Source: Methanospirillum hungatei JF-1
Lineage (GTDB): Archaea; Halobacteriota; Methanomicrobia; Methanomicrobiales; Methanospirillaceae
Assembly: GCF_000013445.1 (NCBI RefSeq)
Contig: NC_007796.1
Span: 2,826,936 to 2,890,935 of the forward strand
Direction of reading: 5' to 3'
Length of the DNA stretch: 64,000 bases
Both the position numbers and the translations under genes were made by a program. Every line of letters starts with the position of its first letter. The first letter of the stretch is position 1. The notes below the pieces were generated by a model. That model saw only the letters and a list, made by a program, of their open reading frames with translations. It was not told the DNA's origin and did not search any database. Below are positions 44,738-47,929 of the stretch, in pieces.

Positions 44738-45442
44738 ATGCAGCCAATCCCACTCGTAAACCCGGATGTCAGGGACTGCTCTGAACTTCTCACGGTAATG
44801 GCAGACCCAGACTGTAGAACCGGGGGGCCGGCATATGAGATGTTCAGGGGGCTTTATCTAAATGATCCGGATAAAAAGTGGCTGGAGGAGCACAAGATCA
44901 GATATGATATAACCAGGATTCCCGGACAGGTGATCTGTGGAGAGTGGATAAAAACCAAGGGCCATTATCACCAGTCTGCTCCGGACGGGTATGCATTTCC
45001 GGAGATATATGAAGTGCTGGAAGGGGAGGCATTGTACCTGCTTCAAAAGATTGACCTCTCAGATATCATCCTGGTGAACGCACGAAAAGGAGACCTTGTC
45101 CTGATTCCTCCCGGGTATGGACATGTCACCATCAATCCGTCAGAGGATACCCTTCTTATGGCAAACCTGGTTTCTTCCGCTTTTACAAGCGAATATCTTC
45201 CATTTGAAAAGATGCAGGGAGCAGCATATTATCTGTTCGCCGATGGAAGAAGAGAGAGAAACCCACGGTATCCGGAAACAATCCCGGAATTGCGTGAGGT
45301 AACCTGCTATGGAAAACCGCTCCCCGAACCTTTTCCACAACAGGCACTCTACTCCTGTGTGGGAGATGAAAAGAGCCTGGCCTTTTTGAATAATCCCGGC
45401 TCGTTTTTAAAAGAGTATCAGGAACTTTATCTTTTTATGTGA
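44738..45442 (+). CDS. pgiA: Archaeal cupin-type glucose-6-phosphate isomerase
   Basis: Protein of 234 aa. It interconverts glucose-6-phosphate and fructose-6-phosphate with a metal bound in a cupin barrel. Metal ligands visible: His-x-His in TKGHYHQSAPDGYAFPEIYE near residue 75, Glu in the same segment, and His in LIPPGYGHVTINPS near residue 128. Length exceeds the Pyrococcus enzyme (about 190 aa) by an extra 40 residues at the C-terminus. Convergent 16-nt overlap with nadE. Confidence 0.92.
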   Translation: MQPIPLVNPDVRDCSELLTVMADPDCRTGGPAYEMFRGLYLNDPDKKWLEEHKIRYDITRIPGQVICGEWIKTKGHYHQSAPDGYAFPEIYEVLEGEALYLLQKIDLSDIILVNARKGDLVLIPPGYGHVTINPSEDTLLMANLVSSAFTSEYLPFEKMQGAAYYLFADGRRERNPRYPETIPELREVTCYGKPLPEPFPQQALYSCVGDEKSLAFLNNPGSFLKEYQELYLFM

Positions 45443-46164
45443 GGTGCGGGTCGCTGTTTATGGCCTGCCCGATGAATTTTTTCCATTACTCTCTGTTCAG
45501 CAGGGCTCTTCGGTTTCCATCCCTGTTTTTCAAGGTTGGTGATGGCCTCATCAATAACCGCATAGGGCATACCCAGTTCATCTTCATCAGTCTGATTATG
45601 CCATAGTCCTGCGGACGGGGTTTTTTCTATTACCTTTTGAGGGAGTCCAAGATATCGTGCAAGATCCCAGACCTGAGTCTTAAGGAGGTGCATGATCGGC
45701 TGAACATCTGCTGCGTTATCACCAAACTTTGTGCAATACCCGAGGAGATATTCAGTATAATTAGAGGTCCCGCAGACCAGCCGGTTCATCTGGTTTGCAT
45801 AATAATACAGCATCGTCATTCTGGTTCTGGCCATAAGATTCCCGACCAGGTATGAATTCTCAGTAAAGTCCGGCATCCTTCTGTATTGATCAATGACCGG
45901 CCCGATAGGTATCGTCATTACCGGGATATGAAGAGACTCGGCGAGGAGGCGCACATCGGCAGCATCTTCTGAAGGAGTAACTGCGGATGGGAGAAAAAAC
46001 CCCTGCACCATATCAGACCCTGCGGCACGAACACACAGGGCTGCAGCGACCGCTGAATCTATACCACCTGAAAGTCCGATAACAAAGCCCTTTGAAGAGC
46101 CTGATATGAGTACATCCTGAAGAAGCGTTATGATGGAATCCGGATCCGGAGAGGTGCCTGTCAT
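45427..46164 (-). CDS. nadE: NAD+ synthetase (ammonia-dependent type)
   Basis: Protein of 245 aa of the N-type ATP pyrophosphatase family; amidates nicotinate adenine dinucleotide to NAD+. PP-loop VIGLSGGIDSAVAAALC near residue 27; LVCGTSNYTEYLLGYCTKFG, DNAADVQPIMHLLKTQVWDL and LWHNQTDEDELGMPYAVID are the family signatures. No glutaminase domain, so it uses free ammonia. The product of the nicotinate phosphoribosyltransferase route ends here. Confidence 0.96.
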   Translation of the reverse strand: MTGTSPDPDSIITLLQDVLISGSSKGFVIGLSGGIDSAVAAALCVRAAGSDMVQGFFLPSAVTPSEDAADVRLLAESLHIPVMTIPIGPVIDQYRRMPDFTENSYLVGNLMARTRMTMLYYYANQMNRLVCGTSNYTEYLLGYCTKFGDNAADVQPIMHLLKTQVWDLARYLGLPQKVIEKTPSAGLWHNQTDEDELGMPYAVIDEAITNLEKQGWKPKSPAEQRVMEKIHRAGHKQRPAPHIKR

Positions 46165-46207: not shown

Positions 46208-46924
46208 TCAGCCGGTCCTATGCAAATGATTTTTCTCAAGATCACACAGGCGATCCTGGTACCTGATAAGAGAGAACGGAACGGAGGGGTGATTTCGGGT
46301 AAGAGAAGACAGGAAGGTATGAACATCAGGATCAGGATAAGCCTCGTTTTCGATAGGGATGTTCATCTCAGGTGCAATACGTCGCAGTTCGTCAAGAGGG
46401 ATCTCGCGAAAGGGCCTCAGACAGAGAACCGGGGAGAGGTCAGGATCATGAAGGATTGAAGTCCAACTCCCCGAGAGCAAAGAGCCCAGTACCTGTTCCG
46501 CCTCTTCATCAAGCGTAGTGCATCTGATCATACGATCTGCCCCGGTCATCAGTACACTATCCCTGATACTTCGGCCCTGAATTTCTTCTGTTCTGATAAT
46601 GATGGTTGAGGGGAGATGAGGTAAGATCTTAGAAACCTCAGGGCTATCGCACCCATTATGCAAAAGAACGAGCTCCATCCCAGGTCGTGTTCCAATTACC
46701 TGCACCAGAATAGAGAGGAGAGAGAGACATGCCTGCCCCTCCCATACGATAGCAAGAACTGGTCTTTTCCCCAGTCCTCCATCAAGCCGGATACTTCGCT
46801 TTACTCTGACCAGAACATCTGCAGCAAGATGGACTGCGCACAGATACCGGCCTGAATAACGCTGATGGATGACGGACGGTGCCCTGCATCTGACACAGGG
46901 TTCACGGGTATGGATCACGCTCAT
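46208..46924 (-). CDS. TtuA/Ncs6-like protein lacking the ATP-binding PP-loop
   Basis: Protein of 238 aa. An N-terminal zinc-knuckle (C10, C13, C29, H32: REPCVRCRAPSV, RYLCAVHLA) and the following VRVKRSIR match the start of TtuA/Ncs6 tRNA 2-thiolation enzymes. The later TTLDEEAEQVLGSLLSG and LCLRPFREIPLDELRRIA match their 'LDDEAxxxLxNxLRGD' and 'RPLREIPExEV' segments. Where those enzymes have SGGKDS this one has VWEGQACLS, and the catalytic cysteines are not evident. It is therefore probably not an active ligase. It lies 43 bp past nadE, on the same strand. Confidence 0.6.
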   Translation of the reverse strand: MSVIHTREPCVRCRAPSVIHQRYSGRYLCAVHLAADVLVRVKRSIRLDGGLGKRPVLAIVWEGQACLSLLSILVQVIGTRPGMELVLLHNGCDSPEVSKILPHLPSTIIIRTEEIQGRSIRDSVLMTGADRMIRCTTLDEEAEQVLGSLLSGSWTSILHDPDLSPVLCLRPFREIPLDELRRIAPEMNIPIENEAYPDPDVHTFLSSLTRNHPSVPFSLIRYQDRLCDLEKNHLHRTG

Positions 46925-47068: not shown

Positions 47069-47929
47069 ATGGACCTTTCTGCAGACCATATCAAATCCCT
47101 TCATAAATATGAACTCCGCATTCTCCAGTCAATTGAATACCTCATGAGCAGGTATTCCTGGGTACCGGAAGAGGAACTGGTCCACAACTCCCGCCTTTCT
47201 GCCAATGAAGTCCACTTCAGACTTTCAAAACTGATGGAGAAAGGAATGGTTAAGTATTCACAGGTCCCGTATCCCGGGTACTGCCTTATTTTTAACGGAT
47301 ATGATACCCTGGCAATATCTCATCTGGTAAAAAAGGGGATTATCAGTTCACTTGGATCCTGTATCGGTGAGGGCAAGGAGTCACGAGTCTATGAAGCACT
47401 CGGAACCGGCCCGGTTATCCTCAAACTGCACCGGATAGGACAGCGATCATTTCAGACAGTTCGGCGGGGAAGAAACTACCTTCCTGAAAAGCAGCATTGT
47501 CCCTGGGTGCTTGCATCACATTTCTCTGCCGAACAGGAATACCTCGCCTTGTGCACGCTTCAGAACCATGTCAGGGTCCCAACGCCCCTCCTGATGAACA
47601 GAAATGTTATCGCGATGACATATATCGCAGGTGACCGGTTATCTGACTGCACGCTGGAAAATCCGCGGGAAGTTTTGGATGAGATAATTGCCCAGGTCAG
47701 GGCAGCATACTCGCGTGGCTACATCCATGGTGACCTGTCAGAGTATAATGTCATGTTTGACGGCGAAGAGATCTGGATCATCGACTGGCCACAATGGGTC
47801 TCGCCACATCATGAAAATGCATCCGAAATCCTGGACCATGATCTTGAGACCATCACAAAGTTCTTTCACCGGCGGTACCGGATCTCTTCTGATATGAATG
47901 AAGTCAGGAGTCTGGTGACCGGGTGCTGA
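47069..47929 (+). CDS. rio2: RIO2-type atypical protein kinase
   Basis: Protein of 286 aa. The N-terminal winged helix of RIO2 (residues ~1-80: HKYELRILQSIEYLMSRYSW) is followed by the kinase: GEGKESRVYEAL nucleotide loop near residue 95, catalytic YIHGDLSEYNVMF near residue 222, and metal-binding IDWPQWV near residue 238. RIO2 acts in small ribosomal subunit maturation. Its stop overlaps the DUF460 start by 7 nt, so the two are co-translated. Confidence 0.95.
   Translation: MDLSADHIKSLHKYELRILQSIEYLMSRYSWVPEEELVHNSRLSANEVHFRLSKLMEKGMVKYSQVPYPGYCLIFNGYDTLAISHLVKKGIISSLGSCIGEGKESRVYEALGTGPVILKLHRIGQRSFQTVRRGRNYLPEKQHCPWVLASHFSAEQEYLALCTLQNHVRVPTPLLMNRNVIAMTYIAGDRLSDCTLENPREVLDEIIAQVRAAYSRGYIHGDLSEYNVMFDGEEIWIIDWPQWVSPHHENASEILDHDLETITKFFHRRYRISSDMNEVRSLVTGC

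Follow-up and report, generated by a model that had tools for sequence, protein, structure and literature searches.

The ncsA gene at the conserved rio2-nadE locus of Methanospirillum hungatei JF-1 is not a side paralogue. It is the ncsA locus conserved across the Methanomicrobiales, hollowed out beside a second copy that lies elsewhere in the genome. The hollowed-out copy (hereafter dead B) has lost its catalytic residues, is under purifying selection and retains residues that the second copy (A) has largely dropped. Dead B probably pairs with A in an A·B heterodimer, as the subunit that positions RNA and carries out no catalysis; the pair would be an archaeal counterpart of Ctu1/Ctu2 that evolved repeatedly. 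On the wider claim we incline only slightly towards a positive answer, namely that a Ctu1/Ctu2-like heterodimeric U34 thiolase evolved repeatedly in archaea from homodimeric NcsA, in several Methanomicrobiales lineages and in Methanothrix, with A keeping catalysis and B the RNA-positioning residues.

The window is the whole 64,000-nucleotide stretch of contig NC_007796.1 that was analysed. The gene, its motifs and the two neighbours that mark the locus lie as follows.

46208..46924, minus strand: dead ncsA (copy B), a pseudoenzyme of 238 aa; open reading frame with ATG start, profile match, alignment and predicted fold.
46829..46897, minus strand: N-terminal LIM zinc knuckle, residues 10-32 (C10, C13, C29, H32); ligands in 76/76 dead copies.
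46850..46864, minus strand: QxYSG motif, residues 21-25; in 73/76 dead copies and 0/42 A copies.
46787..46801, minus strand: basic helix motif KRxIR, residues 42-46; final R in 76/76 dead and 7/42 A copies.
46727..46744, minus strand: remains of the PP-loop, residues 61-66, WEGQAC for SGGKDS; alignment.
46685..46687, minus strand: R80 (R74 of intact B); in 74/76 dead copies and 5/42 A copies.
46286..46291, minus strand: HP motif, residues 212-213; present in almost every dead copy.
45427..46164, minus strand: nadE, conserved downstream neighbour and locus marker; profile match, synteny.
47069..47929, plus strand: Rio2 kinase gene, conserved divergent neighbour and locus marker; profile match, synteny.

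Residues 10-32 of the protein match Pfam TtuA_LIM_N (E 1.1e-7, over the gathering score), the sole Pfam match seen, and residues 10-87 give a partial match to NCBIfam NcsA (E 9e-10). The equivalog cut-off of the latter model is missed (38 bits vs 500), but this threshold is uninformative here as intact copies of Methanomicrobiales also score under it. Pfam CTU2 did not match the window protein at E up to 5, nor any of 18 dead copies at E up to 1. An AlphaFold model built from 16 relatives (mean pLDDT 85.5, pTM 0.83) has NcsA 6scy as its top match among solved structures (Z 20.3, 220 residues, rmsd 2.8), with TtuA and TilS next, so the predicted NcsA fold spans the entire protein and not just the first 90 residues. 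A different fold was rejected on the strength of this match. The earlier note, made from the sequence alone, had named the protein a TtuA/Ncs6 relative with a zinc-knuckle start and proposed structure prediction as a check; the profile matches and the NcsA fold obtained agree with it.

Alignment with intact relatives places W61-E-G-Q-A-C66 where SGGKDS stands, without the PP-loop lysine. The three [4Fe-4S] cysteines fall within stretches that are deleted in the window protein, and the C-terminal zinc ribbon is missing. Both the exchange of SGGKDS (given earlier as VWEGQACLS) and the absence of visible catalytic cysteines had thus been read correctly, as had a likeness of the late segments to thiolation ligases: LDEEAEQVL aligns with LDDEAQSVL of intact copies, and RPFREIPLDELRRIA with their KPFxxIPEREVALYA.

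Two kinds of ncsA exist in the Methanomicrobiales. Copy B is situated between rio2 (divergent) and nadE, an arrangement common to intact and dead B across the order, throughout which a search found orthologues of the window gene conserved. Copy A occupies other sites, and its sequences make up a clade of their own (SH-aLRT 99-100). The earlier note had proposed looking for an active TtuA elsewhere; M. hungatei does have an intact NcsA, copy A (G000:C1:2479434-2480363), in which SGGKDS, every cysteine and the two zinc sites are present. In a census of 135 genomes (>=90% complete; classes counted by hand; intact-B calls in genomes without sequence reading based on profile score and length, and absence calls partly on draft assemblies), 69 had dead B with A, 7 intact B with A, 56 intact B without A, 2 dead B without A and 1 A alone. 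B is therefore dead in 69/76 genomes with A vs 2/58 without (Fisher p 3e-27, kinship ignored). As seven genomes hold A together with intact B, A had no need of a dead B. Where the rio2-B locus is assembled, A was never found without B; the loss of B in G144 is apparent only, this assembly also being without Rio2, with the region missing. The two dead B copies without a detected A (G053 and G101, 91% and 96% complete) perhaps reflect incomplete assemblies. One assembly contains two dead B copies (G100:C35 and G100:C154), possibly a strain mixture or a recent duplication. The N-terminal residues kept by B and its conserved locus favour B as the older copy, on a weak rooting. In other Halobacteriota, the ncsA match was unusually weak, with at least two matches per genome, in G261, G282, G301, G317, G319, G210 and G321, as if the gene were interrupted by an insertion such as an intein.

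The losses in A and B are complementary. Dead B was defined by its missing SGGKDS, and residues are numbered here by intact B, in which R39 and R74 equal R46 and R80 of the window protein and QxYSG equals its Q21-G25. QxYSG, R39, R74, SGGKDS and the three cysteines are each present in 30/30 intact B. Dead copies retain the LIM ligands (76/76), QxYSG (73/76), R39 (76/76) and R74 (74/76). SGGKDS and the three cysteines are found in 42/42 A copies, which also retain their own LIM ligands; however, QxYSG is present in 0/42, R39 in 7/42 and R74 in 5/42, these standout columns having been chosen after the Methanomicrobiales data were viewed, with R39 and R74 recurring in Methanothrix. A broader comparison covered the 79 columns that do not vary among intact B and outgroup NcsA: 33 are kept by A alone and 8 by dead B alone, with 11 kept in both and 5 in neither. 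Retention in A vs dead B is negatively correlated over these columns (rho -0.29, p 0.008). The size of this effect is modest, but its sign is telling, because two copies of the same fold would by default keep the same structural columns. Within single genomes the negative association of losses is likewise modest (mean phi -0.13).

A search with the Methanospirillum copies also retrieved dead copies from Methanothrix (g100). Most genomes of this genus have an intact and a degenerate copy, but a single intact copy is the rule in most of the family's other genera. The Methanothrix dead copies that were examined share neighbours with the single intact copies of relatives, and they group with these (SH-aLRT 100), apart from Methanomicrobiales B. 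The Methanothrix dead copy is an independent second case. QxYSG, R39, R74 and H245 are found in 21/21 degenerate copies, and the intact partner keeps R39 in 14% and R74 in 7%, with H245 replaced by F in 85% and just a partial loss of the YSG turn. In both orders, then, R39, R74 and a basic residue at position 35 were dropped by the intact partner and retained by the dead copy, a pattern which argues that these residues may be required only once per dimer. The degenerate copies lie at loci L255, L256 and L300-L318, at least two of them at a pelota-linked ncsA locus, and those of G363 and G354 still have SGGKDS but miss the cysteine stretch.

These observations can be accommodated in a single scheme. 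NcsA normally acts as a homodimer, which adenylates tRNA U34 at the PP-loop and thiolates it at the [4Fe-4S] cluster. Here a second ncsA, A, provides the catalytic centre. B no longer has the means to bind ATP, nor the cluster cysteines or the C-terminal zinc ribbon, but holds on to the LIM knuckle, the QxYSG turn, the basic helix KRxIR, R80 after the first core helix and the HP motif. Most of these retained residues are in turn lost from A. B would pair with A in the geometry of the former NcsA homodimer and supply, in trans, a surface that holds or orients the tRNA; A would perform all of the chemistry, with sulfur coming, in M. hungatei, from the adjoining cysteine desulfurase and IscU-type scaffold. 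We infer the physical A-B dimer from these patterns, the model of B being that of a monomer alone. The kept residues would hold the tRNA, and U34 is the presumed target of A by homology. The earlier note had suggested that the protein might bind tRNA or a sulfur carrier and regulate or chaperone the active enzyme. It presumably does aid that enzyme, but a subunit seems favoured over a chaperone or regulator because the second copy is without exactly those residues that dead B retains.

B may instead work apart from A, although we consider this unlikely. Here a second, non-catalytic role of NcsA (binding of RNA or the ribosome, or handling of a ubiquitin-like sulfur carrier) would alone have been kept once A took over thiolation. 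The parts that B retains, a zinc knuckle and a basic helix, are in keeping with such a role, and its loci adjoin Rio2 in the Methanomicrobiales or a pelota-like gene in Methanothrix, both of which are ribosome-linked. However, this leaves unexplained why A, in two orders, lost the residues kept by B and why A is never found without B at an assembled locus.

In M. hungatei, A runs directly into two ORFs, one for a cysteine desulfurase of the NifS/IscS type and one for an IscU-type scaffold (L083:5035-7644 = G000:C1:2479434-2482043; assigned by eye), and this adjacency suggests a dedicated sulfur supply for A. The best model for A of M. hungatei is NcsA, with further scores to the TtuA and TtcA models. 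Those further scores, together with the diverged N-terminus of A, would fit a different thiolation by A (e.g. s2U54 or s2C32), with s2U34 given up in dead-B species and B acting as an inhibitor or tRNA chaperone. We regard this as improbable: NcsA remains the best model, A copies match the canonical NcsA-type proteins of other Halobacteriota well, and B has lost catalysis in genomes with A, which a takeover of that activity by A would predict.

Lesions of the P-loop vary by lineage (SGDGDS, SGSKDS, SGDLAS, SGRTDS, SGGASS, WEGQAC), and these differences point to B having been inactivated repeatedly. In each of the genera g12, g20, g21, g25 and g30, some genomes have an intact B and no A and others a dead B together with A. 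With the differing lesions this disfavours a single ancient loss of B for the whole order. The tree of the dead copies is poorly resolved. Horizontal acquisition of the dead copy was rejected, since it occupies the conserved rio2-nadE locus. The course of decay can be followed: in some copies the P-loop was struck with the cysteines still present (G055 SGDGDS, G088 SGSKDS, G094 SGSKGS); overall, all three cysteines are kept in 11/76 dead copies and none in 58/76. The shortest dead copies are ~183-198 aa, the ~183-aa remnants being those of G071 and G072. Matches to dead B cross a stop codon near the C-terminus in G063:C190 (one TAG), G070:C24 (one TGA) and G072:C12 (TGA and TAA), so this end is drifting in some species.

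Selection nevertheless acts on what is left. M. hungatei dead B and its closest relative give a dN/dS of 0.28 (bootstrap 0.17-0.44), and four other dead-B pairs give 0.23-0.41, with bootstrap upper limits <0.6. Moreover, dN in the N-terminal module and HP region is lower than in the remainder in 5/5 pairs. The residues invariant in 18 diverse dead copies are C10, C13, Q21, Y23, S24, G25, L28, C29, H32, D36, R46, L69, R80, P171, E179, H212 and P213, none of which is a PP-loop residue or cluster cysteine. Ten of the 12 Methanospirillum genomes contain a relative of the window protein, with identities from 88 down to 33%; one of these relatives is a fragment. Taken together with the NcsA fold, the dN/dS value and this distribution speak against a chance reading frame and support the maintained pseudoenzyme that had been proposed, and a decaying pseudogene is disfavoured by dN/dS and the retained motifs. 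That B is a relic, redundant after the arrival of A and in slow functionless decay, is very improbable: the decay is indeed graded, from lesions of the P-loop only to the ~183-aa remnants, and B evolves faster than A, but dN/dS is far under 1, the LIM ligands and R39 are kept in every one of the 76 dead copies, frames are open in the dead copies read and no assembly covering rio2 and its flank was found without B.

Archaeal NcsA has been described as one enzyme that stands alone (PMC10067955), and U34 thiolation in archaea as a task for one protein. No earlier description of an archaeal dead NcsA was found among open-licence papers, and a comparison of sulfur-carrier systems among archaea, M. 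hungatei included, does not mention one in the passages searched (PMC2948915). If the scheme is true, this would be a many-times repeated example of a homodimeric tRNA enzyme becoming a heterodimer, and the kept and lost columns would map the residues that work in trans and are needed once per NcsA dimer, separating chemistry from RNA holding. Natural A-B pairs would also be a possibly tractable model of Ctu1/Ctu2, as recombinant production of the eukaryotic complex had been tried without success by the time of PMC10067955. For annotation, 'NcsA' at the rio2-nadE locus is often no enzyme.

Dead B shares its fold (Z 20.3) and LIM knuckle with archaeal NcsA (Methanococcus maripaludis, 6scy) and is the positional orthologue of intact NcsA; canonical NcsA copies in other families have QxYSG and KxxIR, as dead B does. 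Unlike NcsA, it is without the PP-loop, [4Fe-4S] cysteines and C-terminal zinc ribbon, and it coexists with a second, intact NcsA. TtuA (Pyrococcus, Thermus) has the fold and LIM domain in common with dead B but is an intact m5U54 thiolase. Eukaryotic tRNA modification already offers examples of partner subunits that are dead or have diverged (PMC6382703; PMC10067955). Trm6/Trm61 and ADAT3/ADAT2 follow a parallel logic, in which a duplicated subunit becomes a substrate-binding partner (PMC6382703, PMC10067955), but they are eukaryotic, with other folds and other chemistry. The closest likeness is to Ctu2/Ncs2. NcsA is a homodimer on which an AlphaFold model of human Ctu1/Ctu2 superposes, and Ctu2 was proposed to have become, by divergence, the subunit that orients the tRNA (PMC10067955). 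Both Ctu2 and dead B are dead NcsA-fold paralogues without cluster cysteines, beside a Ctu1/Ncs6-like catalytic paralogue (active in the sense that all catalytic residues are present by sequence), and both keep the N-terminal zinc site. However, the zinc sites of Ctu2 are described as still in place, and it has two additional regions (PMC10067955); dead B is shorter, without the C-terminal site. Ctu2 is part of a complex with Ctu1, whereas dead B is known here from its sequence and a monomer model. Dead B does not match Pfam CTU2, and synteny and trees, drawn from archaeal sequences, place its origin separately inside each archaeal order.
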